From the NCBI GenBank assembly GCA_019217005.1, contig JAHBNG010000051.1:1-64000 (forward strand): DNA of 64,000 nucleotides, given 5' to 3'. Numbering within the stretch: the first letter of the stretch is position 1; each line of letters begins with the position of its first letter. Source of the stretch: Chloroflexi bacterium TSY (GTDB taxonomy: Bacteria > Chloroflexota > Anaerolineae > Caldilineales > Caldilineaceae). The notes beneath the pieces are model-generated. The model was not told the origin of the DNA. It did no database searches and saw only the letters and a list, made by a program, of their open reading frames with translations. Of the stretch, positions 32,163-53,070 are shown piece by piece. The position numbers and the translations under genes are program-made.

Positions 32163-33714
32163 GTGAACCCAAAAGCTTCTTCTTCAACACTCCATCAGCC
32201 GCTCTTTCTCCGATCCTTGCCGTTCGGCTTATTGGGTTTTCTTCTGCCAATCTTGGGGTGGTTCAAAATTAGGTTTACACTTTTGATATATAGACAAAAA
32301 TCTATATGAGACCGTTTTCTCTCTGAGAACCGGCGAAATCAGAGAATATAAACGTTCTTTCTGTTTCTAAAAGTGTAAACCTATCTATCCAGCTAAAATG
32401 AACCACCCCCCCAATCTTTGGCAGAAACATGGGTGCGGATGCTTTTGTGATTGGTGGCCTTTTTTCGATCACACCTCTCATCCTACTCATCGTGCGCCCC
32501 ATTGTTGGCTGGGCATTAGATCATTACGGCCGACGCCTCTTTTTTATCATAGCTATTGCCGGTACCTCCGTTGCTATGTTGCTCTTCGCCTTTACTGAAA
32601 CTGTAGGGATGCTCTATGCAGCGCGTATCGCACAAGGCATTGCCGCAGCGTTTATTGGGATCACGGCCCAGACAATCGTGGCCGATCTTGCAACAGCTGA
32701 CCGACGCGGTACGGAGATGGGCCGTATCGATGAAGTTCAAGTGCGCGGTGAAATGGTTGGCATTCTCATGGGAATCGTCATCTTTTCAGTTCTTGGGGAT
32801 CGAGAATTGGGATGGCGTCTCTTGTTTGTAGCATATGCAATCATCTGTGGGTATGCATCGTGGCTCGCATGGCGTACCGTCCCAGAAACCAAACCAACAA
32901 ATGATTTAGAGAACGACGCGGCTTCCCTCAAAGAACATCCTGAAATCCAATCTGGCCCTGTATTCGCCTCATCATCTATTATCCCATCAAACAGTATCAT
33001 CCCTCATGCCTTCGAACAGAGTCAGGACAAAACTGTTCTGAGCCGATATACAGAGGTTTTTGCTGGATTAACGAAGCCATTGTTGCTGCTCATGTTGATT
33101 GTCGTGATGCGAGCCAGCGTTCTTTCGATGATCGATCCGATTTTCCTGATCTACCTCCAAGATCGCGTCACAACGGAGTTAATGCTTTTAGGTTGGGCCT
33201 TCTTTCCAGCCGGGATTGTGTACAGCTTCTTGCCTTCGCGATTGGGTAAATTAAGCGACCGTTTTGGACGCGCTCCGATGATGGCGATTGGAATGATCGT
33301 TGCTGGTCTCTTTTATGCGCTCGTGCCGCAACTCTCGAGCTTGGTTCTACTCTCTGTGGCAAACGTACTGGTTGCAGTTGGCTGGGCCTTCGCTGACCCG
33401 GCTGAAGCAGCTCTCGTTGCTGATTTAACCGATGCGCAAACGCAACGCCGCACGCAGGGCCAAATCCAGAGTCAGACGCGCGGCCGCGCCTATGCTTGGT
33501 ATGCGTCTGCGGGAAGTCTTGGTGCAATCATCGGCCCGTTGATAGGTGGTTGGCTCTACGATCAAATAGGGCAAGCAGTTCCGTTTTACTTAAACGGCAT
33601 TGTCCTCACCATTTGTGCAATAGGCACGATCATCTTGCTAGGACGATCAGATCTGAAAACTTTCTCAAGTTTAAATAGCCGTTTGATCAATTCACTAGAA
33701 AACGATAAGATAGA
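32163..33714 (+). pseudogene. MFS transporter, interrupted by MITE-B and abutted by MITE-A
   Basis: Probable GTG start at 32163. The first 28 residues end FGLLGFLLPI, then MITE-B; the frame resumes with FGRNMGADAFVIGGLF and runs through typical MFS loops (GWALDHYGRR, then LGKLSDRFGRAPM) to a soluble tail. Removing MITE-B plus one repeat (164 bases) restores one frame. MITE-A at 33715 splits the last codon: without it the gene would stop at TAA overlapping the ATG of the histidine kinase (TAATG), 464 codons in total. The present downstream part starts at 32429 at best and lacks the first membrane segment. The transported substrate is unknown. Confidence 0.82.
32255..32410 (-). mobile_element. 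MITE-B copy 4, in the MFS gene
   Basis: Begins GGGGTGGTTC and ends GAACCACCCC(C), with CCAATCTT at 32247-32254 and 32411-32418. The interior is close to the copy at 53071-53225 and differs near one end from the copies at 522 and 6403, defining two subfamilies. Confidence 0.92.
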
Positions 33715-33933
33715 CTCAGTAGATCCAAATTTGGCGTTTTTGGCGATTTTCAGTCGAGATTGCAGGGATTTTGGAGTCATTTATTCAGATTTCGGTTACA
33801 GAAAACAACCTATTTCATATCTGAAAATCGCCCAAATCTAACGCAAAAACTAGATATCGACCGGCAAATTTGTATTTATGTCAACTGTTTAGCCAGAATT
33901 CTCTCTCAAAACCTGAAATTTGGATCTACTGAG
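33715..33933 (+). mobile_element. MITE-A copy 3 (forward), between MFS and kinase genes
   Basis: 219 bp, flanked by AGA and ACT. It sits exactly in the overlap of the MFS stop and the kinase start, extends the MFS frame by 40 residues and supplies an alternative TTG start (33920) for the kinase. Confidence 0.95.
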
Positions 33934-33937: not shown

Positions 33938-34942
33938 ATGACCAAGTATATTCAGCCGATTTTATATCCGCTACGCTCATGGATGGATCACATTAGCCTC
34001 ATGGCATTGTCGATCATGGCTATACTTGCCGTCTATCAGTATTCGGCTGGTGACATTCGTCGTTGGGTGGCTCTCACCATTATGGTCACGTTTGCCTATG
34101 GAATATGGTGGTTGAAATGTGGCCCTGTTTTGTGGAAACAAAATGTCCGCATCGCAATTTTAGCACTGATGCCGTTGATGCTTGAGTGGTTAAATGTAGA
34201 CGGATTTACCGTTGTCATCATGTACTTTATTCTGAGTTCCGGTGTGATGGAGATGCTCCCACCGCGTTTGGGGTACCTTTGGATCTGTTTCTTTGGGCTT
34301 CTGACAGTGGGGCTCTATTTTCATTGGATTGGCTTGGATGGTCTCTTGAATGCCGTTGGCACGTTCGCTGGTTATCTATTCTTTGGCTCCACATCAGAAA
34401 CTGCGAAGAGGGCCGCAGAAGCGAGTAGGGAGAGCCGGCGGTTGTTGGGCGAGCTGCAAGAAGCACATCGTGAGCTGCAAGAACGCGCTTCACAAGCAGA
34501 AGAATTGGCTGCTTCCGAAGAGCGTAACCGTCTTGCGCGCGAGGTACATGATACACTTGGACATCGATTGACCGTGGCAGCCGTTCAGTTGGAAGGTGCC
34601 CAAAGGCTCGTCAAACGCAACCCCGGCAAAGCAGAGATGATGATTGACACGGTTCGTAAGCAAGTATTAGAAGGATTGAGCGAACTACGCCGCACAGTTG
34701 CGACACTGCGCGCCCCTCTCGAGGAAGATTTATCCTTGTCAAATGCGCTCACACGATTGGCCAGCAGTTTTGAAGAAGCAACCGGCGTAACAACCTATCT
34801 TTCTCTGGCGGACAATTTGCCACAAATACCCGACAGCAAACGGCACGCTGTTTATCGCGTGGCCCAGGAATCGCTTACAAACATACAACGCCATGCGCAA
34901 GCAGAACATGCCTGGTTACGACTGGATCGGCAAAATGGAAGT
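33938..34942 (+). pseudogene. Sensor histidine kinase (HisKA_3/NarL-type), N-terminal part
   Basis: ATG 33938. Residues 20-150 contain about four to five membrane segments. A coiled linker leads to the dimerisation motif AREVHDTLGHRLTVAAVQLEG with the phospho-acceptor His near residue 204, then the N-box ESLTNIQRHAQAEHAWLRL. The gene then runs into MITE-A copy 4 and loses its G-box. The missing piece lies at 48185-48376 on the opposite strand beside MITE-A copy 5. Joined, the two give 399 codons without a break. On its own this part cannot bind ATP properly. The natural partner is probably the response regulator at 45742-46422. Confidence 0.9.
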
Positions 34943-35161
34943 CTCAGTAGATCCAAATTTCAGGTTTTGAGAGAGAATTCTGGCTAAACAGTTGACATAA
35001 ATACAAATTTGCCGGTCGATATCTAGTTTTTGCGTTAGATTTGGGCGATTTTCAGATATGAAATAGGTTGTTTTCTGTAACCGAAATCTGAATAAATGAC
35101 TCCAAAATCCCTGCAATCTCGACTGAAAATAGCCAAAAACGCCAAATTTGGATCTACTGAG
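34943..35161 (-). mobile_element. MITE-A copy 4 (reverse), rearrangement junction
   Basis: 219 bp. The left flank reads AGT and the right flank ACT, unlike copies 1, 2, 3 and 6, whose flanks read AGA and ACT. The sequences on its two sides belong to unrelated genes (histidine kinase, permease), both cut off at the element. This is expected if recombination between copies has exchanged flanks. Confidence 0.95.
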
Positions 35162-35953
35162 ACTGGGATACCAAGTTGTGGTAACATAATCTCGTGCATC
35201 CGCGACCATTTTGCCCCAGGTTGGCACAAGAGAGGAGATACCAAGTCCCAGGAAGCTCAGGGCTGACTCGGTAAGGATCATCGATCCAAAGGAGAGGGTT
35301 GCGGCCACGATGACCGGGGCAACCGCATTGGGCAAGATGTGCCGAAACATGATGCGGATATCGCTAACGCCCAAGGCCCGCGCAGCCTCTACATAATCCC
35401 GTTCGCGGATACTCAGCACTTCGCCACGTACAAGCCGAGCAAAGCCAACCCAAGCTCCAATGCCCAGAAAGATAATAATGTTCAAGATCCCGCTACCGAC
35501 GAAAGCGACTGCTGCGATCAGGAGAACAAGAAAGGGGATGGCCGTCTGCGTGTCGGCAATCCGCATGATAATATCTCCCAATAGTCCGCCACGATATCCC
35601 GCAATCAACCCCAGAGAAATCCCCAATACCAACCCGATGATTACGGCAGCGGCTCCCACCAATAGCGAAATTCGCGAGCCAATCAGTACACGGCTGTAGA
35701 CATCACGGCCCAAGTTATCACGCCCCATCAGTCCTGCTCCATCCACTGGATCGAGCCAAATGGGTTTGGCAAAGGGCTTAGAAAAATCAACGGCAACAGG
35801 ATCATGGGGGGCCAGCCAAGTCCCAAAAAGAGCCATTAGGGTGAAAACCAGCACGAGTAGTCCGCCAATGATGCCTTGACGGTGTTTCCATAGGTTGATG
35901 CGTTGCTGTGTTTTTATTGCATCCGTTGTTAGATGCTTGCTTACGTTGCTCAT
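35162..35953 (-). pseudogene. Peptide-type ABC transporter permease (DppC-like), C-terminus lost
   Basis: From ATG 35953, 264 residues are native. LMGRDNLGRDVYSRVLIGSRISLL and the coupling loop RDYVEAARALGVSDIRI identify the DppC type. The last native residues TTTWYP are followed directly by MITE-A, so the final membrane segment and the GDGLRDALDP-type ending, about 33 residues, are gone. The open frame continues through the element's stop-free frame and ends at 34916 in sequence antisense to the kinase. Third gene of the second peptide transporter on the minus strand; its ATPase genes are not in this window. Confidence 0.88.
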
Positions 35954-35967
35954 TTAAGCTGTTCAGC

Positions 35968-36210
35968 TCATGCAGCCAAAGAGGGGATCGGCTGTTGGCT
36001 AACCACTAGATTCGCCAAAGGGAGAGCCGCAATCTCAAGTATCGATAAGTCTAACCGTTGACTTGCATCTTCTATTTCGATACCGATTACACTATTCCCA
36101 GCATCGTAATCTAGCGCAATATTGGGAGCCACTTCTTCCGATTCTGTGCTCACTCCATCTTTGAGTTGGATATAGAGCATATCGGTTTCTGGAAAATATT
36201 GAAAGACCAT
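35968..36210 (-). CDS. DUF2283 protein
   Basis: 80 residues from ATG 36210. The sequence has YFPETDMLYIQLKDG and IALDYDAGNSVIGIEIEDAS, which match DUF2283, small beta-rich proteins often encoded next to DUF4258 proteins as suspected toxin-antitoxin-like pairs. It lies 14 bp after a short frame that looks like such a partner. Its insertion between two permease genes of one transporter is unusual. Confidence 0.8.
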   Translation of the reverse strand: MVFQYFPETDMLYIQLKDGVSTESEEVAPNIALDYDAGNSVIGIEIEDASQRLDLSILEIAALPLANLVVSQQPIPSLAA

Positions 36211-36224
36211 TTTATCTCTATTAC

Positions 36225-36374
36225 TCACTCATCAAATCCACGATCTGGGAAAGCATTATGCACAGTTTCACCATCAGGTTCCACAATTACACGTAAATAT
36301 TGCCCCAACGATTCGATGTGTCCCCAGAAACGAATTAGCCTTTTAGAAAAAGATTTTCTTGTCGTTGATGGCAT
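36225..36374 (-). pseudogene. Short DUF4258-like fragment upstream of DUF2283
   Basis: Forty-nine codons from ATG 36374 to TGA 36225. The part LGQYLRVIVEPDGETVHNAF resembles the last strands of DUF4258-type proteins. The expected N-terminal half is missing; in its place is a palindromic repeat (GCATTTCAGC.../...GCTGAAATGC, 36371-36420) that supplies the ATG. Most likely a truncated partner gene. Confidence 0.5.
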
Positions 36375-36420
36375 TTCAGCTGGTCAGCTCGTCAGCTCTC
36401 TGGCTGACCGGCTGAAATGC
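36371..36420. repeat. Hairpin repeat
   Basis: Arms GCATTTCAGCTGGTCAG and CTGACCGGCTGAAATGC with one mismatch, loop of 16 bases. It lies at the point where the DUF4258-like gene is truncated. Confidence 0.75.
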
Positions 36421-36502
36421 TGACAAGCTACTGTTTCGTGTGGAAAAGCATTATCTGAACATCTATAGGCACATAACTCTGTCAATACATCAATCTCACT
36501 TT

Positions 36503-37438
36503 TTAGCTATGCCGAATCCGCGGATCGACGATCACATAGACCAAATCCAATAACAAAAAAGTGAGAACCGTCAGCACCGAAAAAAGAATCACGTCAAGGA
36601 AAACAACCGGATAATCCCGCGCCATCACGGCCTGTGCGAGCAGGTTGCCAACGCCGGGCCAGGCAAAGACAACCTCAACGATGACGACTGTGCCAATTAG
36701 ATGGGGCAATGCAGAGAGGGTGACTGTAATGATCGACATGCTGCCGTTGCGTAGGGCGTGACCGAAGATCACGCTGCGTTCGGCCAATCCTTTGGCTCGC
36801 GCCGTGCGGACGTAATCCTGATTCATCGCCTCCAACATGCCGGAGCGCCCAATGCGGGCCACTGTTGCCATCAACCCAGTGGAGAGCGTCACAGCGGGAA
36901 GAATCAAGTGTTTCCAGGTTCCTGTGCCAGAGGTAGGGAGCAAACGCAGCGTCACGGAGAAGATCACAATTAAGATAATGGCCATAAAGAATTGGGGCAT
37001 CACAATCCCCAATACCGCGCCTGTTGTCGCTGCAGTGTCGATGAAAGATCCCCGCTTGAGAGCTGCAATGATGCCCAGCGGTAAACCGACCAAAATCCCG
37101 ATCACAGCTGCGGCAGCACCAAGCAGCAAGCTGTTGGGCAATCGTTCAAAGACAACGCGTGTGGCGGGTACCCCATAGCGAAAAGAATAGCCAAAGTCCA
37201 TTTGAAGCGTACGCTGCCAGAAGACGAAGTACTGAACATAGAGCGGCTTGTCCAGCCCCATTTTGCGCCGGATCTCTTGATACTCAGCCTCGATCTCCTC
37301 CCGGTCCCGATTTGGATCCAGATTCACGCCCAAACTGGCTGGATCACCTGACACCCGGATCAGGAAGAAGACCAACGTCACAACCAAAAATATGACGAGA
37401 ACTGCCTGTAGCAGTCGGCGGACGATAAAGGCTTGCAT
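36503..37438 (-). CDS. Peptide-type ABC transporter permease (DppB-like)
   Basis: 311 residues from ATG 37438, preceded by GGAG; the longer frame to 37486 reads into intergenic hairpin sequence. It starts QAFIVRRLLQAVLVIFLVV and has the coupling loop GMLEAMNQDYVRTARAKGL and the ending YVIVDPRIRHS, all standard. Six membrane segments. It lies between the binding protein (upstream) and DUF2283/DppC (downstream). Confidence 0.92.
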   Translation of the reverse strand: MQAFIVRRLLQAVLVIFLVVTLVFFLIRVSGDPASLGVNLDPNRDREEIEAEYQEIRRKMGLDKPLYVQYFVFWQRTLQMDFGYSFRYGVPATRVVFERLPNSLLLGAAAAVIGILVGLPLGIIAALKRGSFIDTAATTGAVLGIVMPQFFMAIILIVIFSVTLRLLPTSGTGTWKHLILPAVTLSTGLMATVARIGRSGMLEAMNQDYVRTARAKGLAERSVIFGHALRNGSMSIITVTLSALPHLIGTVVIVEVVFAWPGVGNLLAQAVMARDYPVVFLDVILFSVLTVLTFLLLDLVYVIVDPRIRHS

Positions 37439-37475
37439 GGTTCTCCAGAAAATGTATGACAAGATGAGGGGATGA

Positions 37476-37521
37476 CAAGATGACAAGATGACTGTCCTGC
37501 AGCCCTCATCTTGTCATCTTG
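37476..37521. promoter_or_regulatory. Stable hairpin between binding protein and permease genes
   Basis: Perfect 16-base arms CAAGATGACAAGATGA and TCATCTTGTCATCTTG with a 14-base loop. In the transcript of the minus-strand operon it falls between the binding-protein stop and the permease start, a place where hairpins commonly protect the upstream message so that more binding protein than permease is made (inference). Confidence 0.7.
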
Positions 37522-37527
37522 ACAAAT

Positions 37528-39102
37528 TTATTCGGATGGAACGTGCATCTCAAAGGACTTATTAAAGCTTAGTTCGGGTAGATTCGGGGCCAATGCATAG
37601 AGTGCTGGAATAGTGTAGGCGTAGATAGCCTGGGCGTTTTCACAGGAATAGGCTGCAATTTCTTTGACCACTTCCTCACGTTCGGCCGCATCCACAATTC
37701 CTCGCTTTGTAGTAACCCGCTCAACAAAGTCCGCATCGGTCGGTGTCCCATCCTTGACGGAGGTCCACATGGAAGAGTTATTGTCGAGCAGATACCAGTT
37801 CAGGCCAATGTTCATGATGGGTGGCAGGGTTTGGTCAATGAGTTGTTGTAGCCAGACTGAGGATTCCATAAACTCCATGTTGACCTCGATGCCAACCGCA
37901 GCCCACTGGGCAATCACAGCCTCCATGAAGGGTTGGTCGCGGAAATAGCGTCCAGCCGTTGAGGAGCCATCAACGGTAAAGCCGTCGGGATATCCCGCTT
38001 CAACGAGCAACGCCTTGGCCTTTTCTGGATCATAGGGATAGCGCATGACGTCTGGATTGTAACCAAAACCACCTGGGGCCACGATTTGACAGTCCAGCAA
38101 GGTGCCGTAGCCGCCGGCGATCGTCTTCCACATGCCTTCCAGATCGATGGCATAGAGCATGGCTTGCCGCACGCGCACATCCTGCATTGGTTCTGATTCG
38201 CCCCAAATGTCAAGACCCACATACATGCTCTGCATACTGTCACCAGCGAACAGCTCAAAGCCTTCCGCCAACAAACTATCAACTTGATCTGGCGCTACGT
38301 GAGCGGCAACGTGAATTTCGCCGCTTTGTAGAGCAGCCACACGCACTGCGGATTCAGGCATGTGGCGGAAGGTCACTTTGTCGATGACTGGCTTGTCGCC
38401 CGGATAATCTTCCCAACGCTCCAGGCTGATGAAGTTGTCTCGCTCCCAAGAAGCAAATTTGTAGGGTCCAGTTCCCACAGGTTCTTCAATGTACCCGTCA
38501 AGACCAACGGCTTCTAAGTGGTCCGGTGCGAGAGGCATGTGATTGGCAAAGAGATTGGCCCAGACATCGACTGGCTTGATGAGCTTGAACTCTATGGTAT
38601 AGTCATCGATCACTTCATAGGATTCATAGTCGTTCAGCTGCCGGAAAGACCAGGTGAACTTCTGCGGTTCAGCATTTTTGAGGAACTCAAACGATCGGGC
38701 AAGACCAGGTGCAGTGAGCTGTTCCCCGTTATGAAACTGGATACCCTCCTTGATGACGATACGCACGGATGTATCATCAAGCAATTCCATCGATTCCAGC
38801 AAATTTGGTTCGATGGCCCCCGTCTCTTCATTCAAGACAGCCAGGGTTTCGTACATCAGTGTGGAAAAGATACGCGATTGGAGAGAAGGAATTGTATTGC
38901 CCACCAGCGTCACGGGTAGGGCCCCCATTCCCACGACCATCTCGTCGGGATAGCCCTCTTCGGCCATGGCTGTGGATTCCTCGCTGGATGTGGACTCTCC
39001 GGTTGCTGGTGTCGTGGCAGGAACACAACCTGCCAAAATCATCATCAGCAATATGCTAATGATGCCCAAAGTTCTGACTGTTCGATATGGCTTTTTGACC
39101 AT
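37528..39102 (-). CDS. Peptide-type ABC transporter substrate-binding lipoprotein
   Basis: 524 residues from ATG 39102, with AAAGGAGG just upstream. Signal LGIISILLMMILAGC ends in a lipobox, then a Thr/Ser/Glu-rich linker and the SBP_bac_5 fold (EEPVGTGPYKFASWERDNF, AMLYAIDLEGMWKTI, YPYDPEKAKALLVEAGYPDG). First gene of the second peptide transporter. It is not closely similar to the binding protein at 21158, so the two systems are not recent duplicates. Confidence 0.92.
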   Translation of the reverse strand: MVKKPYRTVRTLGIISILLMMILAGCVPATTPATGESTSSEESTAMAEEGYPDEMVVGMGALPVTLVGNTIPSLQSRIFSTLMYETLAVLNEETGAIEPNLLESMELLDDTSVRIVIKEGIQFHNGEQLTAPGLARSFEFLKNAEPQKFTWSFRQLNDYESYEVIDDYTIEFKLIKPVDVWANLFANHMPLAPDHLEAVGLDGYIEEPVGTGPYKFASWERDNFISLERWEDYPGDKPVIDKVTFRHMPESAVRVAALQSGEIHVAAHVAPDQVDSLLAEGFELFAGDSMQSMYVGLDIWGESEPMQDVRVRQAMLYAIDLEGMWKTIAGGYGTLLDCQIVAPGGFGYNPDVMRYPYDPEKAKALLVEAGYPDGFTVDGSSTAGRYFRDQPFMEAVIAQWAAVGIEVNMEFMESSVWLQQLIDQTLPPIMNIGLNWYLLDNNSSMWTSVKDGTPTDADFVERVTTKRGIVDAAEREEVVKEIAAYSCENAQAIYAYTIPALYALAPNLPELSFNKSFEMHVPSE

Positions 39103-39136
39103 TATGGCCTCCTTTGTCGGAAAAATATTTATGGGA

Positions 39137-39210
39137 GTGTGTACCAAAGTGTGTAAATGCAACCGATTCTCTGACTGAGCGGTCTCCATTTACATACTTT
39201 GGTACACACT
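39137..39210. repeat. MITE-C copy 2
   Basis: Inverted repeat GTGTGTACCAAAGTGTGTAA / TTACATACTTTGGTACACAC, about 74 bp in all, with CTCTGACTGAGCGG in the centre. It lies just upstream of the binding-protein gene. Related copies at 32069-32140 and 45623-45698. Confidence 0.8.
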
Positions 39211-39232
39211 CAATTACATTGATGTAGAATTG

Positions 39233-39319
39233 TTAGGCTTTCAATTTTTCGAGGATCGAGTCTTCTATAAAATCCCACGCTTCTTTCAGAAACCACTTTC
39301 TGTGAAGTTTCGTCGACAT
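39233..39319 (-). CDS. Possible 28-residue peptide
   Basis: ATG 39319 to TAA 39233 with a strong AAAGGAGAAAG five bases before the start. The peptide is basic at its N-terminus (STKLHRKWFLKEAW) and amphipathic in the second half. Unknown; it could be a leader peptide or the start of a deleted gene. The strong ribosome site is the main evidence. Confidence 0.4.
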   Translation of the reverse strand: MSTKLHRKWFLKEAWDFIEDSILEKLKA

Positions 39320-39477
39320 ACTTTCTCCTTTTTAGAACAGGGTGATCATTTAATGGAAACATAAGATGCAGACCAATCACTCTTTGTAGCCGACTACGTG
39401 TTTATCCAAAAAGTTCTGCCACAAACCATTCCTGTTCGAGAAGACAACCATACTCACAACCCTTTTTCAGGTAAGTT

Positions 39478-39738
39478 CTAACTCGCAATCACCTGCAACT
39501 CTTCCCGAATGACCTTGCGTAGTGTGTTTTCGAGTGTTTGTTCTTGATTCCGAATGTACTCTCGGAGTGCTTCGTTGATCAGGGTTTGGTAGTTCCCACC
39601 GCCTGCTTCATGTACTTCATGGCGAAACCAGTTTAGAATATCAGTGTCGATCCGGATCGTAATGCGTGTTTTGCCAGGCGGTGACGCCACGACCGCCCCT
39701 TGCACTGAATTGTCAAAGTCATGCTCTTTTTCGCTCAT
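39478..39738 (-). CDS. brnA: BrnA-type antitoxin
   Basis: 86 residues from ATG 39738 (AAGGAGAAC upstream). TRITIRIDTDILNWFRHEV and YQTLINEALREYI form a ribbon-helix-helix DNA-binding domain as in BrnA. Antitoxin that binds BrnT and represses the shared promoter. Its start lies inside the end of the toxin gene, the usual BrnT-BrnA arrangement. Confidence 0.87.
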   Translation of the reverse strand: MSEKEHDFDNSVQGAVVASPPGKTRITIRIDTDILNWFRHEVHEAGGGNYQTLINEALREYIRNQEQTLENTLRKVIREELQVIAS

Positions 39739-39994
39739 AAGTTCTCCTTTGCCGTTTTGTCGCACGGCGGGCCGAAATCAAACGAATGTCGTCATCTCGA
39801 TGGGTGTAGACCACGACCAATACTCGTCCCAGGAAATCCATACCGAGAGAAATGAATCGCTGCTCACCATCAATATCTTGCTCCTCGAGAGTTAATGCCC
39901 ATTCATCCTCTAACGCGCCAACAGCATCCGCGAAATCTATGTCGTGTTTCTCGAGATTAAATTGAGCTTTATCGGGATTCCATTGGTAGCTCAT
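39719..39994 (-). CDS. brnT: BrnT-type ribonuclease toxin
   Basis: 91 residues from ATG 39994. QWNPDKAQFNLEKHDIDFADA and RISLGM/DDDIRLISARRATKRQRRTYE features match BrnT, a RelE-fold RNase that slows translation. The AT-rich stretch just before the ATG, TGCACAATTTGTGCATACAA on the complementary strand, contains a palindrome TGCACAATTTGTGCA at about 40007-40021 that is a good candidate operator for the BrnT-BrnA complex. Confidence 0.87.
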   Translation of the reverse strand: MSYQWNPDKAQFNLEKHDIDFADAVGALEDEWALTLEEQDIDGEQRFISLGMDFLGRVLVVVYTHRDDDIRLISARRATKRQRRTYERKRA

Positions 39995-40006
39995 GAGCAA
40001 ATTGTA

Positions 40007-40021
40007 TGCACAAATTGTGCA
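40007..40021. promoter_or_regulatory. Palindrome upstream of brnT, possible operator
   Basis: TGCACAAATTGTGCA-type palindrome in the promoter region of the toxin-antitoxin operon, about 13 bp before the toxin ATG. The assignment as operator is by position only. Confidence 0.5.
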
Positions 40022-40139
40022 CGAGTCAAGTGTGAGCAGATCTGTGACCTGACATGAAACAAGGGAGGAGCTAACTCAGCTTTCTGCTCTTAGTTCGTAG
40101 ATTTCTTTGCAAAGAAGAGCTGGAAGATGCCATAGCTAC

Positions 40140-41228
40140 TCAAAGTTCCCCCAGTTTTTCCAATACCGGCCACAAATCCAACTGCTCAACGGCATGGCTG
40201 CGATAAATGCCCAATCCATCCGCTCCGTTATTCATCACAATTTTCCCGGCAGCCAACATAAGTTCGGGATCCTGAAAACTGCCTGGATGATAGGCCGACA
40301 ACTCGGCAATGACAGGCACGCGGCCATTGGCAACCCCCACTGCATGGCGAATCTGTTGTTCGAGTTTGGTCAGGTCCGAATCGGTACGAAACCAGATATA
40401 GAACTCATCCAGAATTCCTTGCTCGATCCAAGCCGGCCAGTCATGGAGTAGCTTGAGATAGTCGTCCGGCTCACCCGTAATCATGGTTGTGGAGAAGACA
40501 GCGTTTGGAGACAGTCGCTTGACCTTGGTCCTCAGTTCGGAGAGGAAAAGGGTGACGTAGTCAGCGCGAAATTGCATCCACTCTGGATCGTCATTCGGGA
40601 GTGCAAAGGCATCCTTTCCCGTCTTTTCTCGAAACTCAGCGACCACACGATCTTCATAACCATAGGGTACCACACCATTTTCATCTTCATTGCCCAGCAC
40701 AAACTCGACCTGGATACCGTCTCCTTTGGTTGCTGTTAGGGTGTCTAGAAAGATTTGGGACTGATTCTCCCGTACTTCTGGGAAGGCCGGGCTGAGGTAG
40801 ACGTCTTCCCCTGGATTGAGGGTATAAGCACAGCTGCGAGTCAGGCTGCGGTATTCGGGGTGTTTGCTGGCAAAGTCGGCCACCGTCGTGGTGACCTTGG
40901 GTGCATCGTAGATGGGAATGTGGTCTTTCAAGATTGCGTTGGCTTGCGGATCGTCCACCGGAACACGTATAAAGTCTACGGACCAGCCATAGGTAACCCT
41001 AGCGCTGCCGTAGCGGGGAAAGGAGTTGTAGTTGATGTAGGGATCTACCTTAATTCCGACTTCATGAGCGGCTTCAGTCAGGGCAAGCGTACGATCTCCA
41101 CCAATGATCTTCGAAATGCCAACATCGGCACATTTCTTCACCCAATCTGGCAAGTGTTCAGCGTAATCGGGGCTGTCGGGGGTACTATTCACAGCGGGTG
41201 GTCCCCAGAGTATCAATCGTTCAGGCAT
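40140..41228 (-). CDS. Glycoside-hydrolase-like TIM-barrel protein
   Basis: 362 residues. It looks like a (beta/alpha)8 barrel related to the GH10-like/DUF4015 group: WVKKCADVGISKIIGGDR, VDPYINYNSFPRYG, GDGIQVEFVLGNEDENG, ILDEFYIWFRTDSDL and NNGADGLGIYRS follow strand-helix order, and GVVPYGYEDRVVAEFREKTG is a typical segment. No signal peptide. It may act on a sugar in the cytosol or be a non-catalytic relative. Same direction as, and 187 bp after, the aminotransferase-fold gene. Confidence 0.65.
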   Translation of the reverse strand: MPERLILWGPPAVNSTPDSPDYAEHLPDWVKKCADVGISKIIGGDRTLALTEAAHEVGIKVDPYINYNSFPRYGSARVTYGWSVDFIRVPVDDPQANAILKDHIPIYDAPKVTTTVADFASKHPEYRSLTRSCAYTLNPGEDVYLSPAFPEVRENQSQIFLDTLTATKGDGIQVEFVLGNEDENGVVPYGYEDRVVAEFREKTGKDAFALPNDDPEWMQFRADYVTLFLSELRTKVKRLSPNAVFSTTMITGEPDDYLKLLHDWPAWIEQGILDEFYIWFRTDSDLTKLEQQIRHAVGVANGRVPVIAELSAYHPGSFQDPELMLAAGKIVMNNGADGLGIYRSHAVEQLDLWPVLEKLGEL

Positions 41229-41415
41229 ATCTGCTATGCTACCTTTCTTGGCTTGTTTTGAACACTATGTATACTCCGCAGCAGCACATTATAACATTAT
41301 CTCTCGACTAAAAAGTGTTATTTTATGGCGCTGCTCAGTATAACGTTTCCTCTCCACCTTTTCTTGATGCGGGTTTACCGACCAAATAGTCTCGAATGGC
41401 TATCGTTTCATTGTA

Positions 41416-42609
41416 TTAATTTCTTAGGCCCTCCTCGATGCCTTCCAAAAGCCGTCCCACCTCATCTTGCGTATTATAGGCAGCCACCGAAATACGCATG
41501 GCAACCTTCACAGGATCAGGGGGTGCGGTCAACCATTGGGCTTTGACGACCACTTTCTGCCTCTCGTACAAATGCTCAACAAGCGCATCCATGTCGGTTT
41601 TGGTAAACCCATCAAACATAAGTGAGGAAATCCCTGCATATTTCCCCTCTTCCAATGATGTAATAATCCGGGCCCGATCTATCTGGAAAACGCCTTCACG
41701 GAGCGTTTGAGTTAGGCCTGCCGCTGTGGCTTGAATGGTATCCAAGCCGATGCTTTCTGCAATCTCAACGGCCTTGCCTAAGCCAACCACAAGAGCATGG
41801 TTATAAGTACCAATCTCGCTACGAGAACTGGCTGTTGCGACAGGAGTTGGTGCGTCTTCGAGCGTCCACGGATTACGGTCGGGAATGAAGTTGGGGCGAT
41901 AGTTGGGCAGTCGCTTATTGGAGACCACCACGAATCCTGTTCCCATGGGACCCAGAAGCCACTTGTGACCGGAGCCAACCACATAGTCGCAATTGAGTGC
42001 CGCGAGGTCCACAGGCATCTGGCCGACGGTTTGGGCCACATCCAGCACAACAGGAGCCCCCCACTCGTGAGAGATATCAGCTGTCTCTCGCACTGGCAAC
42101 AGGCAGCCGTCCGGGGAAGAGATGTGGCTGATGCAGACCAACTTGGTGCGCTCGGTTAGAGCAGAAGACAGGTTCTCCAAGAGTACATCATCGCCCTGAT
42201 CCGCCGGAATCACTTTCACATGAACGCCATACTCGTTCCGCAGTTCATGGGAAACACCATATGTACTGACATGCTCTGACGAAGTCATTATCAATTCATC
42301 GCCGGGTTGCCATTTGATGCCGTGAATGACCAGTTGCATCGCGCGGGAAGTATTGATCATAATGGCCAGTTCCTCATTGGGAACGTTGAGCAGCCGCGCC
42401 AACTGGCTTCGCGCCACAGCTTCCCGCTCGACATGAGACGCACGACCAGCCGGTGTGGCTGGTCCGTGGTGTGCCTCCGCCTCCATCACCTCTCTTACCG
42501 TTTTTAACACAGGGTTGGTGGCTGGACCATAAGTGCCTGTTTGGAAATAGGCTACCTCCCGCGTCATGGGGAGCTCTTGCCGCAGCTCTTCCACCGTCAT
42601 TTTTGGCAT
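41416..42609 (-). CDS. Aminotransferase class V-fold PLP enzyme
   Basis: 397 residues. VGSGHKWLLGPMGTGFVVV contains the Schiff-base Lys; VVLDVAQTVGQMPVDL supplies the PLP-ring Asp; MINTSRAMQLVIHGIKW is the phosphate-binding region. Similar to isopenicillin-N epimerase/cysteine-desulfurase-like proteins; the reaction is not determined. GAGAGGAAT precedes ATG 42609. Confidence 0.85.
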   Translation of the reverse strand: MPKMTVEELRQELPMTREVAYFQTGTYGPATNPVLKTVREVMEAEAHHGPATPAGRASHVEREAVARSQLARLLNVPNEELAIMINTSRAMQLVIHGIKWQPGDELIMTSSEHVSTYGVSHELRNEYGVHVKVIPADQGDDVLLENLSSALTERTKLVCISHISSPDGCLLPVRETADISHEWGAPVVLDVAQTVGQMPVDLAALNCDYVVGSGHKWLLGPMGTGFVVVSNKRLPNYRPNFIPDRNPWTLEDAPTPVATASSRSEIGTYNHALVVGLGKAVEIAESIGLDTIQATAAGLTQTLREGVFQIDRARIITSLEEGKYAGISSLMFDGFTKTDMDALVEHLYERQKVVVKAQWLTAPPDPVKVAMRISVAAYNTQDEVGRLLEGIEEGLRN

Positions 42610-42851
42610 ACTCGATTCCTCTCAACGCCATTTGTAATCGATTTCTATTCCAATCAATAATAGGAGGGTATATTGGGTTTTACTTTGAATGTGAGGTCAG
42701 TTGATATCTTGTTCGCTCTGTCGGAGGGATGAATTCTATTGTAACAGTTTGTGTCTTATTGTCAAAGCCCAGCGCACATTTGGGTATGTGTCAGATTTCT
42801 GGGAAACAGAGTTGTTGTGCTGCTGCGGCGTATATAGTCAAGCTAGCGTCT

Positions 42852-43985
42852 TTATGAAGAGACAATCTTATATACCCGAAACCCCACTTCTTCAGCATCC
42901 TCCATCTCCTGCAAGACATGCCGAATCCGCTCCTTCCCAATTTCAGCAATTGTCTCGAAACCAGCCAGCCAAGCACGCGAATTTTCGGGCGTTGGCTCAG
43001 GTTGCTGCACCATGATAAATCGACGCTTGCCGCCATCTGCTTGATTCTGGGTCAACACGGCATGAGCCATGCTGCATGAGCCAGCGAAAAAGTCGAGGAC
43101 AAGATCACCTTGATCAGAATTGGTGTCTGTTCCAATGGTCAGGAAATAGCGTAGGTAGTCAGTTGGTTTGGGATTGTTGAAGAGAGAGACGCCAAAGAGC
43201 CGCTTAATCTCTTGTGTGCCTTTGTTGTAAAGCCCCACCAAGCTCTTGGGCACCAAAGATGCAGGTGCCCCCATGGCATTGCCCAAGTGCTTCTTGATGT
43301 AAATATTCCAGCTTGCTTGATGGCCTTCTTCATTAATTAGTGGGCTGGTTTTGGTTGCTTTAAAGACCACTAGATCGTCTTGTAGCGCCCGTTCGAAGCG
43401 TTCACGGACAAAGCGAAAGAGATAACCTGGTCGTGGTTGGACAAGCGTTCCATCGGGGCACTCGATTAAATAACGTTGCTTTTCATTGGTCGAAGCCGTT
43501 ATCCAAGCGAAATCCTTTTCTCGATAGGGACCACGTCCATCTTTCCGTTTATACTGCCTAACTGCCTCCTGTGAAAGTGGTGCAAAGAGTTTGGGAAGCA
43601 TCTCAATGTCTCGAGCATAGCAAAGGGCATACTCATGATTGCGATTCACATATTTTGCCCGTATCCCCCCTGCCGTGGACGAATGCCAAACAAACTGAGC
43701 AACGAAGTTTTCTTCTCCGAAAATTTCATTCATGACCATCTTAAGATGGTGCACTTCGTTGTCATCAATACTGATAAAAATGAGACCATCAGGACGCATC
43801 AATTGACGTGCGAGGATCAGACGCGGCGTTATCATCGATAACCACAACGCATGCTGCATTGTCCGCTGATTCAATCCAGATGCTGGAACGTCTGGGAGTT
43901 GGTCATCTATCGAGTCTGATTGTGATGAACTATGTAGAGCCTGTTTTCCATTTTCCTGAACTTTCTCTCGATAGAATCGATCCTT
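42852..43985 (-). pseudogene. Mod-type DNA methyltransferase, C-terminal part
   Basis: Begins right after the ISAzo13-like element with KDRFYREKVQENG. It contains RPDGLIFISIDDNEVHHLK (methylase motif V region) and, near its end, LVLDFFAGSCSMAHAV, the AdoMet motif I in the position found in beta-class/type III Mod enzymes. Motif I has Cys-Ser where Gly-Thr is usual, which may impair cofactor binding. Joined to the N-terminal part, 459 codons are continuous. No res helicase gene is adjacent. Confidence 0.85.
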
Positions 43986-43988
43986 ATA

Positions 43989-45289
43989 GGCTAAACCAAA
44001 AAAATAAATAATTATACGCGAACGAGAGAATGGAGAGGGGGAATAAGGACAAACCATTTTTCTAAACCAGGTAAACGTTGGAAGCGTTGTTCCAAACGGT
44101 CCATCTCTTTCTGAGTGAGTTTGACGCCGGTCTCATAAAGAGTGGAATTCAGGTGAACGAAGGGTTGTAGTTGGTTAAAGCGAAAAGAACGGGCAAAATT
44201 GAGAACGGTCTCAAGAGAATCGAGAAGAGAACCGTTCCAGTGTTTTTCAAGATGGCCCCAAACCCGTTCGATGGGGTTGTATTTACTGTGATAAGGAGGG
44301 TAGCAGGCGAGCTGAATAGAGAGACGATAGTGCTCAACAAACTGAGTGAGACGATACATAAACTGAGTCCGACGGGTATGATTTTCGGGACCATTGTCCT
44401 GATTGATCACGAGGGTCTTGACGTGAGGAAAGTGTTCACGTACGCTTTCCCAAAAAATCAATCAGGCAGTCGACAATACAGTCACTCGTCACTTTCGACT
44501 GAGTCAAGTAAAGAAAGAGTTCCTTGGTTGAAGGGAGGTAAATGCCAAAAGGAGTGACTTTCTCGGTCTTCTTATCTTGAAAGTCATGATCGAGCGCTTT
44601 GACAACCACTCGACTTATCCCTTCTCTCGAGAAACGGTCAAGTAAAATCGTCGCTTTGGCATCCCAAGAGAGGCGCAGAACCGTCTCGTCTGCATCCGCT
44701 TCTTGATTGATCTGATGAATTCTATCAAAGATCGCATCGGTCTCTGGGATCTTTTTCACTGGTTGACTTTTTTTGACCCGGTTTGAGCCATAGCCTAACT
44801 CATTGAGCTTCAAGCGGATGGCCTCTTCGCCAGGCAATTCCTCATCTGTGTATCCTTTCTGCTCGATGAGCTGGGTACGCATTTCGGCGGCGGTTAGTCG
44901 AGTGTACAATTGGGGTCGAAAGGTGGGATCGGTCTGGCTGAATTGATCGGCGATTTCAACCATATCGGCCAGTAAAGTGGGGATATGGTCTTCGGCTTTT
45001 GCGACCACGTCGGTGGCTTTGGTCGACATAACAGAAGCCGCCTTCTAGTTCTTCCAGGGCTTTGGCTATCGTCGCCCGATTCCAGCCCAACTCTCGTTCT
45101 GCTTTCGTCGGACTCCCTTCGCATATCGTTTTGACCGTTTGGGCCATGAAGTGCCTTCTTTCGTATCCACTTAACATGGCCTTCGTCTCTTTCAAGACTT
45201 CAACCATTTCTGGCGAGATTGTCATTTTTGCTCCTTTTGGAGAGCTAGTTTAACACCTTCTCGCGTATATTTTATTTTTTGGATTGGCC
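43989..45289 (-). mobile_element. ISAzo13-like insertion sequence copy 2
   Basis: 1301 bp, same ends as copy 1, with ATA duplicated at 43986-43988 and 45290-45292. Inserted a few codons after the methylase motif DPPYNTG. Differs from copy 1 by one extra base in an A-run and a T-run and lacks three bases near 44,914. Confidence 0.92.
44012..45225 (-). pseudogene. ISAzo13-like transposase copy 2, frameshifted
   Basis: Frame 1 (45225-44956) and frame 2 (45029-44436) are related by the same +1 change as in copy 1. Here frame 2 runs on through PVKKIPETDAIFDRI because the T-run has seven bases, but a six-A run near 44,455 breaks the frame within LIDFWESV; frame 3 (44461-44012) has the catalytic DNGPENHT and NPIERVWG parts. 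Neither copy encodes a single intact enzyme. Confidence 0.8.
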
Positions 45290-45532
45290 ATAAACAAAAT
45301 CTTTTCCCGTGTTATAGGGTGGATCGATATAGATCATCTTCACTTGACCCAAATACTGCTCTTGTAGCAGCTTGAGGGCTTCGAGATTATCGCCTTCAAT
45401 GAAGAGATTTTCTGTTTGATTCCAGAAGAGAGACTCCTCTGGCATAGGAATCAATCTCCCCAACGTTGGCGTCTGCGCGAGACGAAGGGCCTCTCGCTTG
45501 CCAGGCCAAGTAAATGAAAAGGATTCATACAC
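45290..45532 (-). pseudogene. Mod-type DNA methyltransferase, N-terminal part
   Basis: The frame reads YESFSFTWPGKREALRLAQ, ENLFIEGDNLEALKLLQEQY and MIYIDPPYNTGKDFVY; the last carries methylase motif IV (DPPY). An in-frame TGA lies about 24 bases before the GTG at 45532 and the usual first 40-50 residues of such proteins are absent, so the gene appears truncated at its N-terminus as well as split by the IS. Confidence 0.85.
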
Positions 45533-45622
45533 GAGATTTTCCTTGCCTCAGCCTTGATGAAATTTAGTGAATACAGTTACCCAATTGTTCTGTGCTACCT
45601 TTATACAGCAGAACAAGAGACA

Positions 45623-45698
45623 GTGTGTCCCAATGTGTATAAATGAAGACCACTCAGTCAGGGAACATGCTCCATTGACACCCTTTGTGGCATACACC
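45623..45698. repeat. MITE-C copy 3 (degenerate)
   Basis: GTGTGTCCCAATGTGTATAA ... CACCCTTTGTGGCATACACC, clearly related to the copies at 32069 and 39137 but with more mismatches between arms. Confidence 0.7.
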
Positions 45699-45741
45699 CA
45701 GACAAGATGAGCCAGAATAAGCCGTTTGTTCTACAATATTT

Positions 45742-46422
45742 CTACAAGAATCCCAATTCACGACCGCGTAATGCAGCTTGTGTTCTATCACGCACACCGA
45801 TTTTTTGTAAGAGGGATGTTACATAGTTCTTGACGGTTCCTTCGGCGAGGAAGAGGCGTTGGGCAATCTCGCGATTGGTTAAACCCTGAGCGAGCAAGCG
45901 CAAGATCTCCAGCTCACGTTCTGCCAATGGCTCTGCTAGACCAGCATCAGGTGTGCGCGCTGGCTTGGCAAGACGTGCAAACTCAGCCACTACTTTGCGC
46001 GTAACAGAGGGATCAATCAGTGCGTTGCCTGCAGCCACAGTGCGGATGGCGTGGGCCAATTCATCACCTGATACTGCTTTGAGCAGATACCCTTGAGCAC
46101 CGGCCCGCAATCCTTCGAAGACAAATTCATCCTCATCAAACGTCGTGAGGATGATGACTTTGGCGTCGGGCCAGCGTTCGCAGATCCGACGCGTCGCTTC
46201 GACACCATCCATACCCGGCATACGGATATCCATCAGAACGACTTGGGGGTGAAGCAACGCATACTGATCAAGAGCGACCTGACCATTCTCAGCCTCACCC
46301 GCGACATTGAGATCTGGCTCAAGTTCCAGCAGCGTTCGCAACCCATCGCGCATTAAGCGCTGATCATCGACGAGCAATATGCTAATTTCTTCAGTTGAAC
46401 CAGCCTTGAATGAATGGGTCAC
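45742..46422 (-). CDS. NarL/FixJ-family response regulator
   Basis: 226 residues. Receiver domain with acidic pair VDDQRLMRDG, phospho-acceptor Asp65 in VVLMDIRMPGMDG, Thr/Ser switch ILTTFDEDEFVFEG and Lys in YLLKAVSGDE. LuxR-type helix-turn-helix at the end (LAERELEILRLLAQGLTNREIA, split as seen over residues 163-184). ATG 46422 overlaps the TGA of the ThDP enzyme gene (ATGA). The matching kinase type is the HisKA_3 protein now divided between 33938 and 48376. Confidence 0.93.
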   Translation of the reverse strand: MTHSFKAGSTEEISILLVDDQRLMRDGLRTLLELEPDLNVAGEAENGQVALDQYALLHPQVVLMDIRMPGMDGVEATRRICERWPDAKVIILTTFDEDEFVFEGLRAGAQGYLLKAVSGDELAHAIRTVAAGNALIDPSVTRKVVAEFARLAKPARTPDAGLAEPLAERELEILRLLAQGLTNREIAQRLFLAEGTVKNYVTSLLQKIGVRDRTQAALRGRELGFL

Positions 46423-47963
46423 AAGATAACCTCGATCAGGCGCGGTCCTCGATTCTTTACGGCAGACTCAAACTGGCTGGCGAATTCTTCGGCTGTTGTG
46501 GCCTGCGATGCCTCAACACCCATCCCATTGGCAATTTGACACCAGTCGAGATCGGGATTTCCCAAATCTAACATCTGTTGCGCTTTGGGACCACTGCCGT
46601 CTGCACCAACCTTTTGCAATTCCACTTGCAAGATAGCGTAAGCTCTATTTGAAAAGAGCACAGTTACAATGTCCAGATTTTCGCGGGCCATGGTCCAGAG
46701 CGATTGAACTGTGTACATAGCCGAACCATCGGCCTGCATGTTGAGAATTTTGCGATCAGGGCAGGCAACAGCCGCGCCAACTGCCATGGGCAATCCATTT
46801 CCGATCGCGCCACCCGTGACGCGGATCTCATCGTAGGGTGGAGCTCCGGCCATCCACTTTTGCGCACCACGGCCAGAAGTCACCGCCTCCTCGGCAATCA
46901 CAGAGTGCTCTGGCATAAACGCGGAAACAGTGGCCCAAACTTTCGGTGGATCAATGGGACCGGTCGGCAATGGTGGGCGGTTTCGCTCGTGAATCCGGCC
47001 TGGTTCATCGGGTACGTGTAGCTCTTCAATCAGTGCTCCTAGGGCTGCAATTGGGTCATCTTGAGGCGTTGCAAGGGTATGAATCTGGCAATCGGGTGGC
47101 ACAGGCGTACTTGGTGTATCGGGGAATGCAAAGAAATTTACGGGCTGTCCTGTACCAACCAGGATGATGTGGGCAGTGCCTTTAAAAGCCTTTAGTGCCT
47201 GTTCAACAGGGTAAGGTTGGGTTTCAATCATCGCGCGTCCGGCACCACGCTGGATCCGCCCATTGGCCATCTTGCACATCAGTCGACTGTTTGTTGCGTG
47301 CCCGATCCGGCTAGCAAGATGCAATCCATGCTCCATCAGCACTGTTCCTGACATAAAAAACATCGTTGGTTCGTCATTACGCAGGATGCTGGCAATTTCG
47401 GAAATCCGTTGGCTATCGACACTGGTTGGCTGAGGAAGCCGTGGCGCAGGTGCAGGATCTACGCTTTTTTCCCAGGTGCAGTCACCGGGTAAGATCAGCG
47501 TCGCGATCTGTCCTGGCGGCTGCATGGCCGCAGCGATCGCTGCAGCACCATCAGCCGGGACGCTCACAGCGTCTTTGGATGAATGTACCCAGGCAGAAAC
47601 AGGGCGCGCCACAGATTCGATGTCAGATGTCAAAGGCGCGTCGTATCGTAGATGATAAGTTGCATGGTCACCCACAATGTTGACAATTGGGCTTCCAGCA
47701 CGTTTGGCGTTGTGTAGGTTCGCAAAGCCATTGCCTAGACCTGGGCCGAGGTGAAGCAAAGTTGCGGCCAGCTTGCCCGCCATCCGTCCATAGCCATCCG
47801 CTGCGCCGGTGCAAACACCTTCGAACAGGCCAAGAACTGTACACATGCCAGGGACTTTGTCGACGGCAGCCACAAAATGCATTTCGGACGTGCCAGGATT
47901 GGTAAAACAGACGTCAACCCCACCATTAACCAGGGTTTGGATTAAGCTTTGGGCACCATTCAT
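46419..47963 (-). CDS. ThDP-dependent enzyme, acetolactate synthase/benzoylformate decarboxylase-like
   Basis: 514 residues. The N-terminal domain has CFTNPGTSEMHFVAAVD with GLFEGVCTGAADGYGRM, which holds the conserved Glu that activates thiamine diphosphate. The C-terminal domain has the ThDP/Mg motif region ILNMQADGSAMYTVQSLWTMARENLDIVTV with GDG replaced by ADG. The length is shorter than IlvB (about 560-600), and the catalytic pocket suggests a decarboxylase or carboligase of unknown 2-oxo acid, not a certain acetolactate synthase. Co-translated with the response regulator. Confidence 0.87.
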   Translation of the reverse strand: MNGAQSLIQTLVNGGVDVCFTNPGTSEMHFVAAVDKVPGMCTVLGLFEGVCTGAADGYGRMAGKLAATLLHLGPGLGNGFANLHNAKRAGSPIVNIVGDHATYHLRYDAPLTSDIESVARPVSAWVHSSKDAVSVPADGAAAIAAAMQPPGQIATLILPGDCTWEKSVDPAPAPRLPQPTSVDSQRISEIASILRNDEPTMFFMSGTVLMEHGLHLASRIGHATNSRLMCKMANGRIQRGAGRAMIETQPYPVEQALKAFKGTAHIILVGTGQPVNFFAFPDTPSTPVPPDCQIHTLATPQDDPIAALGALIEELHVPDEPGRIHERNRPPLPTGPIDPPKVWATVSAFMPEHSVIAEEAVTSGRGAQKWMAGAPPYDEIRVTGGAIGNGLPMAVGAAVACPDRKILNMQADGSAMYTVQSLWTMARENLDIVTVLFSNRAYAILQVELQKVGADGSGPKAQQMLDLGNPDLDWCQIANGMGVEASQATTAEEFASQFESAVKNRGPRLIEVIL

Positions 47964-48032
47964 AAAATTCTCGCTGTGTTGGTTTTTTGATTCAGGACTT
48001 GTAAAAGAATAGACATGATAGGGATTGAAATT

Positions 48033-48104
48033 AGGACACGGATGAACACAGATTTCACGGATTGATTCTGAGATGATCCGTGTTCATCCTGAAAATCCGT
48101 GTCC
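48033..48104. repeat. Hairpin of ATCCGTG words
   Basis: Arms of about 29 bases, GGACACGGATGAACACAGAT... and ...ATCCTGAAAATCCGTGTCC, with few mismatches. Same word family as 3241-3306. Lies in the gap between the ThDP gene and the kinase fragment. Confidence 0.75.
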
Positions 48105-48184
48105 CATATTCTTAATCTTTATAATCTCTAATAACTGCACTTCTACCCGACGGAAAACGGTCAAGTTTATGGCAATGTTCAGTA

Positions 48185-48376
48185 TTATTCAGTTTTTGAC
48201 GATTTTTCCTGGATCGGCACAGAAAATGATAGCCGAACACCCTGACCTGGTTGGGATTCTAAATGTAAGGAGCCGCCTACCTGAATTGAACGTTCTTCAA
48301 GACCACGCAAGCCAAAGCCTTTTCCGTTCTTTGATTGTTCAATGCCGATACCATCATCGCGGACCGAAAGAACGAT
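48185..48376 (-). pseudogene. Sensor histidine kinase, C-terminal part
   Basis: Sixty-three residues starting at the MITE-A end: SVRDDGIGIEQSKNGKGFGL is the G1/G2 ATP-binding region, then GGSLHLESQPGQGVRLSFSV, the last strands of HATPase_c. No start codon of its own. It is the exact continuation of the kinase N-terminus that stops at 34942: ...RLDRQNGS + IVLSVRDDG... The sum 1005 + 192 bases is divisible by three. Confidence 0.92.
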
Positions 48377-48377
48377 A

Positions 48378-48596
48378 CTCAGTAGATCCAAATTTGGCGT
48401 TTTTGGCTATTTTCAGTCGAGATTGCAGGGATTTTGGAGTCATTTATTCAGATTTCGGTTACAGAAAACAACCTATTTCATATCTGAAAATCGCCCAAAT
48501 CTAACGCAAAAACTAGATATCGACCAGCAAATTTGTATTTATGTCAACTGTTTAGCCAGAATTCTCTCTCAAAACCTGAAATTTGGATCTACTGAG
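48378..48596 (+). mobile_element. MITE-A copy 5 (forward), rearrangement junction
   Basis: 219 bp, in the opposite orientation to copy 4 at 34943. Left flank ATA, right flank ACT. The left side is the histidine kinase C-terminus and the right side an ABC ATPase fragment, so it bridges two unrelated broken genes. Confidence 0.95.
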
Positions 48597-48929
48597 ACTA
48601 GTGAACGCTTAATCCACACACTCATGCAACTGAAAGCAGCTTCAACCATTGTCCTCGTGAGCCATCGACCTCAAGTAATCCGTGCAGCTGACCATATCTT
48701 GGTTTTGGACGACGCACAGATCGCAGGTGAAGGGACTCATAACGAGTTGCTGGCCCAAAACGCAACATATCAGGAGCTATTCAGCGCGGGTTTTGGGGAA
48801 ACATTGTCACCGTCTTTGATCACAGACCGCGACGTAGCACCTGGCCTACCAGAGAGCAATGAAAACCCACTACAAGTAACTAATGCGCCAGAGCCTAGTA
48901 CAATTGGGCGTAAATACCACGACAGAAAT
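48597..48929 (+). pseudogene. ABC exporter ATPase, C-terminal remnant
   Basis: Starts at the MITE-A end. ERLIHTLMQLKAASTIVLVSHRPQVIRAADHILVLDD and AGEGTHNELLAQNATYQELF are the D-loop-distal part, H-loop (SHR) and C-terminus of an MsbA-type exporter. Walker A, signature and Walker B are missing. No stop codon separates it from the carboxypeptidase-like sequence that follows. Confidence 0.82.
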
Positions 48930-53062: not shown

Positions 53063-53070
53063 CCAAATCG

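Follow-up and report, generated by a model that had tools for sequence, protein, structure and literature searches.

The window, by which we mean the whole stretch of 64,000 nucleotides from Chloroflexi bacterium TSY analysed here, carries a histidine kinase gene in two pieces on opposite strands, with one of two inverted copies (4 and 5) of a 219-bp repeat at the end of each piece. The genes and repeat copies needed below are as follows.

7763-7981, plus strand: repeat copy 1, lying within an IS701-like repeat; target duplications match
20910-21129, minus strand: repeat copy 2, 220 bp; duplications match
32429-33714, plus strand: MFS transporter, the gene before the kinase, whose stop overlaps the kinase start once copy 3 is left out
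33715-33933, plus strand: repeat copy 3, in the overlap of MFS stop and kinase start; duplications match (AGACT/AGACT)
33938-34942, plus strand: histidine kinase, N-terminal 335 codons, with a putative membrane region, HisKA_3 (Pfam, 3.1e-19) and what we take to be the N-box; placed by alignment with 17 homologues
34943-35161, minus strand: repeat copy 4, element proper 34945-35159; flanks AGTCT and AGACT, unmatched
35162-48377, no strand: block that would have been inverted, 13.2 kb; its 11 hand-picked main frames are all minus, and plus frames adjoin both sides
35162-35953, minus strand: OppC/DppC-type permease, C-terminus lost at copy 4; aligned to DppC 23-267 of 300, about 33 residues short
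45742-46422, minus strand: NarL-type response regulator (Pfam Response_reg and GerE), partner of the kinase by the order conserved in relatives
46419-47963, minus strand: thiamine-diphosphate enzyme (acetolactate-synthase-like, NF005760), separating the kinase C-part from the response regulator
48376-48185, minus strand: histidine kinase, last 63 codons and stop, with what is presumably the G-box, and the C-terminus; joins in frame, HATPase_c being matched only on joining
48378-48596, plus strand: repeat copy 5, element proper 48380-48594; flanks ATACT and AGACT, unmatched
48597-48893, plus strand: tail of an ABCB-type exporter ATPase, about 65 residues, N-part absent; adjoins copy 5
61443-61661, minus strand: repeat copy 6; duplications match

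The two kinase pieces are 1005 nt and 192 nt long, the latter including the stop, and neither contains an internal stop. When they are joined, a single frame of 399 codons (398 amino acids plus stop) is obtained, reading NGS-IVLSVRDDGIGIEQ at the join. The N-half alone gives only HisKA_3 and no HATPase_c match at E 0.001 in Pfam, while the joined protein has, beside HisKA_3, a HATPase_c match of 7.3e-13 covering positions 4-110 of the 111 in the profile. When the joined kinase was compared with 5.8 billion proteins, the window's own fragment (P0001) was recovered at 100% as the sole copy of this kinase among the matches, and the best full-length match (P0002) shows about 55% identity over 98% of the query. 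At the join, 12 of the 17 aligned homologues have no length difference and the other five are longer by 1 to about 10 residues; identity to these homologues is 44-56% in the N-half and 29-51% in the C-half. Since the join is in frame at 399 codons, regains HATPase_c and agrees with the homologue alignment, 33938-34942 (plus) and 48376-48185 (minus) are one HisKA_3/HATPase_c kinase gene in two pieces on opposite strands. A chance joining was considered and rejected, as the 63-codon tail has the right domain, frame, length and neighbour. The first-pass annotation, which was made from the sequence alone, had described a kinase split about 13.4 kb apart on opposite strands with both halves at inverted repeat copies, and its coordinates, its frame and the 399-codon join all hold. 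It had also placed the end of the kinase frame at copy 4; the kinase codons do end at 34942, but the frame itself enters the repeat and reaches a stop only after 349 codons.

The same annotation had suggested looking for an intact kinase in close relatives that lack the element. A kinase profile was searched in 298 genomes of the class to which an Anaerolineae MAG (G001) belongs, drawn evenly from a larger group, where 285 genomes gave a match. At the best 20 loci of this search, in 20 genomes (L052-L071), the gene order was read, and the N- and C-parts of the kinase are contiguous (within 20 nt) in all 20; one in-frame TGA lies inside the match in two of them (L061 and L071) and none in the other 18. 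Moreover, 19 of the 20 relatives have an orthologue of the response regulator 3' of the kinase and in the same orientation, 64-77% identical to the regulator of the window (in L052 it is partial, at a contig end). It mostly lies within 0.2 kb of the kinase; in L053 and L055 the distance reaches about 0.75 kb. For the remaining relative, L071, the contig stops 335 bp past the kinase. In the window the regulator lies inside the block between copies 4 and 5, on the side of the kinase C-part and separated from it by the thiamine-diphosphate enzyme. The reconstructed gene has the HisKA_3 and HATPase_c domains of a two-component kinase of the HisKA_3/NarL type, and its partner regulator is adjacent in 19 of the 20 relatives but not in the window. 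The MFS, thiamine-enzyme and Opp proteins of the window had no match at E 1e-8 in the kinase flanks of the relatives (up to 1.5 kb, 20 loci), which suggests that the remaining gene order around the kinase is either lineage-specific or too distant to be seen; likewise, the order that the whole block would have had before an inversion was seen in none of the 20 within these flanks.

The repeat at which both halves end has six full copies in the window, with 98.6-100% identity to copy 5. The first-pass annotation had taken it for a miniature element of 219 bp; the repeat and its six copies are real, but the element proper is 215 bp (CAGTAG...CTACTG) and is accompanied by a 5-bp target duplication with the consensus AGWCT, the whole insert being 220 bp. 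A single mismatch in 219 positions distinguishes copies 4 and 5, which are separated by 13,216 nt and are the only two of the six with unmatched 5-mers at their flanks. The six copies have four variable columns, none of which is informative for a trace of exchange. An empty-site control is found in the window itself, where the second copy of the IS701-like repeat (54439-55832, minus) has a single AGACT near 54770 and is without the element. For a wider view 51 loci were examined, and 45 element rows could be paired, 6 of them from the window and 39 from 38 of the loci; L003 and L051 represent one location, which leaves 44 distinct elements, and of the 13 loci without a pair five are at a contig end. 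Identical 5-mers stand on both sides in 32 of the 45 rows (28 of 39 outside the window) against 18.5% of cross-pairings, with A first in 84 and T last in 86 of the 90 half-sites. As unusual 5-mers (AACCT, AGGCT, ATCCT, CGACT and ATTCT) also match on both sides, the 5-bp duplication is a true one and the element starts with CAGTAG; a start at CTCAG, with a duplication of 1 bp or none at all, was rejected, given that such unusual matched 5-mers occur in other genomes. Unmatched 5-mers are found in 11 of the 39 rows from other genomes, so a mismatch is not a strict sign of recombination. At 24649-24667 an exact 19-bp end of the element stands alone; no partner end was found for it, and it is perhaps a relic.

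A pattern scan of genome contigs revealed similar elements in three stretches, one from an acidobacterial MAG (L001) and the other two from two contigs of one Anaerolineae MAG (L002 and L003). The element end CTCAGTAGATCCAAA occurs in 22 of the 298 class genomes, and a reversed control pattern was matched once, in 1 of the 298, so that single end matches may be chance. At two loci, L004 and L005, paired ends with terminal CAGT lie about 1.29 kb apart (1292 and 1287 bp) and enclose a 407-residue transposase; 13-18 terminal bases are common to these loci and the window copies. In a 2008 survey (PMC2266710), the ISH3 family is defined by a transposase with the motif Y-2-R-3-E-3-R, a length of 1225-1500 bp and CRGT ends, its 5-bp duplications are of the form A...T, and it is described as so far restricted to archaea. 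L004 and L005 share the length and the ends, and the motif Y-(2)-R-(3)-E-(3)-R is present in them as YRRRFGIESSYR and YRRRFGVETSYR. The 5-bp duplication, mostly A...T, belongs to our element family taken as a whole; the flanking 5-mers of L004 and L005 are themselves A...T, but with 1 and 2 mismatches between the sides. The transposases match the ISH3 model NF033541 at 3.4e-48 and 1e-51, with scores of 164.3 and 175.9 bits against a cut-off of 225, and because of these scores we call the two loci ISH3-like, a divergent branch and not curated members of the family. They further differ from the archaeal family of that survey text in lying in genomes of the class of the Anaerolineae MAG, and such an ISH3-like branch outside archaea seems to be worth curating.

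No ISH3-like transposase was found in the window, the best E being 1.5. The window copies differ from the ISH3 elements described in that survey, being miniature and without a transposase; they are short, share inverted ends with the full-length L004 and L005, and carry target duplications, which match in four of the six. Judged from these features, the window repeat would be a 215-bp non-autonomous ISH3-like miniature element, and a type of miniature element seen in one Anaerolineae and one acidobacterial assembly is now linked to ISH3-like transposases. A literature search over titles and abstract openings, in which few subscription journals were covered, gave nothing on ISH3-type miniature elements in bacteria or Anaerolineae.

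Copies 4 and 5 abut not one but three broken genes, namely the kinase, the permease and the exporter. The matches of the exporter tail in the class genomes fall within open frames, many of about 600-700 residues. Neither the C-terminus of the permease nor the N-part of the exporter was found in the window, the probes being the tail of the window's other OppC together with OppD and OppF proteins; as the probe for the permease C-part is the tail of a paralogue, a divergent piece could have been missed. When the block is re-inverted in silico, the kinase side mends in frame with the 5-mers AGTCT/AGTAT (one mismatch), and on the other side the permease N-part is joined to the exporter tail with AGTCT/AGACT, and these two are not halves of one gene. 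One mismatch is thus present at the re-inverted kinase flanks and one at each copy as it stands today, so the 5-mers by themselves do not favour an inversion. As a separate observation, the exporter tail continues in one open frame (48597-50513) into an M14 peptidase domain, and none of the class-genome matches listed covered both the tail and the greater part of the M14 domain; this fusion may be unusual or accidental.

The orientation of the genes can be read along the same region. Among 21 main frames picked by hand between 25.3 and 50.5 kb, nine on the plus strand are followed by 11 on the minus strand (35165-48376) and then by one on the plus strand, the switches falling at copies 4 and 5. 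The switch at copy 5 is thin evidence, because only a single plus frame (48597-50513) stands there before minus-strand genes resume from 50582. GC skew has no clean break at either copy. When copy 3 is removed by script with one AGACT kept, the sequence GACTAATGACC is obtained, in which the stop TAA of the MFS gene overlaps the ATG of the kinase; this overlap argues that the N-half of the kinase is in its native place and that the C-half has moved.

Taken together, we consider it likely that the element inserted into the kinase gene and that homologous recombination between element copies then rearranged the region, with 35162-48377 flipped. The first-pass annotation had proposed a single inversion between the two copies, and its insertion and inversion are well supported by the contiguity of the kinase in relatives, the conserved gene order, the strand switch and the overlap of MFS and kinase; a single inversion is nevertheless insufficient, as the outer flanks are a permease N-part and an exporter tail and the flanking 5-mers differ. 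The idea that copies 4 and 5 alone explain everything was rejected on the same mismatch of the flanks, and with two different broken genes on the outer flanks at least three insertions and at least two recombinations are needed. The element would have inserted into the kinase, the OppC/DppC permease gene and the ABC exporter gene, making a 5-bp duplication each time, and general homologous recombination of the RecA type between the nearly identical copies would then have reshaped the region. Most simply, a deletion between direct copies in permease and exporter would have left a hybrid copy joining the permease N-part to the exporter tail, and this hybrid copy would have recombined with the inverted copy in the kinase to invert 35162-48377; such a deletion followed by a single inversion takes the fewest steps. 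With the block turned back, the kinase, permease and exporter genes would all be on the plus strand, as a deletion between direct copies requires. Alternatively, two successive inversions could have occurred, in which case the permease C-part and the exporter N-part would be joined at another copy elsewhere.

Three other explanations of the arrangement merit attention. Wrong flanks might have been joined by the assembler at the 219-bp repeats, so that the real block is inverted relative to the contig and the element is merely inserted in the kinase. Copies 4 and 5 are one base apart and longer than many short reads, and assemblers do stumble at such places, since 8 of the 29 element ends in G001 lie within 200 bp of a contig start. 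The contig, however, crosses two pairs of large repeats. The ISAzo13 pair shows 1 substitution and 3 gap openings over 1306 aligned bp. The inverted IS701-like pair shows 3 substitutions and 7 gap openings over 1073 aligned bp, and a further 333-bp piece of it has 1 substitution without any gap. A misassembly is less likely for a contig that passes through near-identical repeats of 1.1-1.3 kb. Exact identity within these large repeats extends for at most 374 and 295 bp, lengths that paired short reads might bridge; yet their differences amount to 4 substitutions against 10 gap openings, about six of the ten gaps lying by eye in homopolymer runs, and we infer from this excess of gaps a long-read assembly, whose reads would span 219 bp. 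There is no N anywhere in the window. A flip would mend the kinase and leave permease and exporter still broken, so a simple flip error is not the whole explanation, and we regard such an artefact as unlikely. An inversion made by transposition itself, in which the element in the kinase attacks a distant target on the same molecule, would also leave the inverted block between two inverted copies. Each new junction would carry the duplicated target once, and the outer 5-mers would be related, here AGACT and AGACT on the window strand. The duplicated target should then appear as a sequence and its reverse complement, a relation that AGACT/AGACT fail at the central base, and the permease N-part and exporter tail would have to be already joined; moreover, IS4-like DDE enzymes mostly cut and paste. 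This route is therefore highly improbable.

The third explanation, raised in the first-pass annotation, is a reversible phase switch of the kinase by inversion. Inverted near-identical repeat copies can recombine repeatedly, and both halves of the kinase are free of internal stops. But after homologous exchange the N-half still adjoins the same repeat end, whichever way the block lies, so the frame ends inside the element as the same 349-residue truncated product either way, and the 220-bp insert is not a multiple of three; re-inversion cannot switch the kinase on, and neither orientation gives a working product. No Pfam match to a site-specific recombinase was found in the 40 frames scanned out of the 112 listed in the window. 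The annotation itself had remarked that the element would still interrupt the gene after re-inversion, and of all the explanations we give the switch the least credence. As predicted from the reading frames, the kinase would be dead in either orientation. A possible consequence of the preferred insertion and recombination is that the kinase is lost and the regulator operon is no longer coupled to the MFS-kinase transcript. Most likely, then, the locus represents ordinary repeat-mediated gene disruption, a well-known kind of genome damage which is unusually legible here, and not a genetic switch. It is rather improbable that the genome is in continual rearrangement among many young ISH3-like miniature copies, with cells of differing gene orders and split operons; if this were true, the kinase-regulator pair coupled to or uncoupled from the MFS operon would be one outcome.

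Inversions bounded by IS copies are already well known. Cases in Dehalobacter (PMC4751268) and in Xanthomonas oryzae PXO99A (PMC2432079) resemble the window in that two mobile-element copies facing opposite ways bound an inverted block, and homologous recombination of inverted repeats is proposed for Dehalobacter. The window differs from what these texts describe in that its copies are 215-bp non-autonomous elements and in that one breakpoint lies in a recognisable gene with matchable halves. In Staphylococcus aureus agrC, according to PMC6686034, duplication/inversion variants revert; there too a sensor kinase gene is inactivated by an event including an inversion, but the agrC revertant is wild type, whereas the kinase of the window keeps the element either way and flipping back brings no restoration. 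A search limited to titles and abstract openings, with few subscription journals covered, gave nothing on inversions by miniature elements that split a kinase gene. The window can serve as a clean, legible example of how a miniature element breaks genes and scatters them in an uncultured bacterium, where the minimum number of events is countable because frame, target duplication and the gene order of relatives allow both kinase halves to be assigned. It is also a caution that one pair of inverted repeats need not mean a switch.

Besides these, several other features of the window deserve mention. A further family of short repeats, about 160 bp long and 81-99% alike, is found at 32255-32416, 53071-53232, 6402-6557 (inverted) and 6562-6648 (inverted), with complementary ends GGGGTGGTTCA...TGAACCACCCC and shorter partial matches near 0.5, 6.35 and 8.3 kb, and it is perhaps another miniature element. 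A type I restriction R-subunit (50582-54182) is present as two minus-strand frames, one with HSDR_N and DUF4145 and the other with ResIII and EcoEI_R_C; the break at about 53115 falls within the repeat copy 53071-53232, and this repeat may have split the restriction gene too. The two ISAzo13-family elements (22820-24123 and 43987-45289) are 99.5% identical, and their transposase frames are broken differently by small gaps, which looks like sequencing error or decay. A 1160-residue protein at 56810-60292 matches CHAT weakly but nSTAND1 and FGE-sulfatase strongly, and at 9903-12374 a TCAD9/NB-ARC protein adjoins a TPR protein; both are possible defence or signalling NTPases. Finally, a tRNA on the minus strand (62724-62797) is the sole Rfam match at the gathering threshold in the window.
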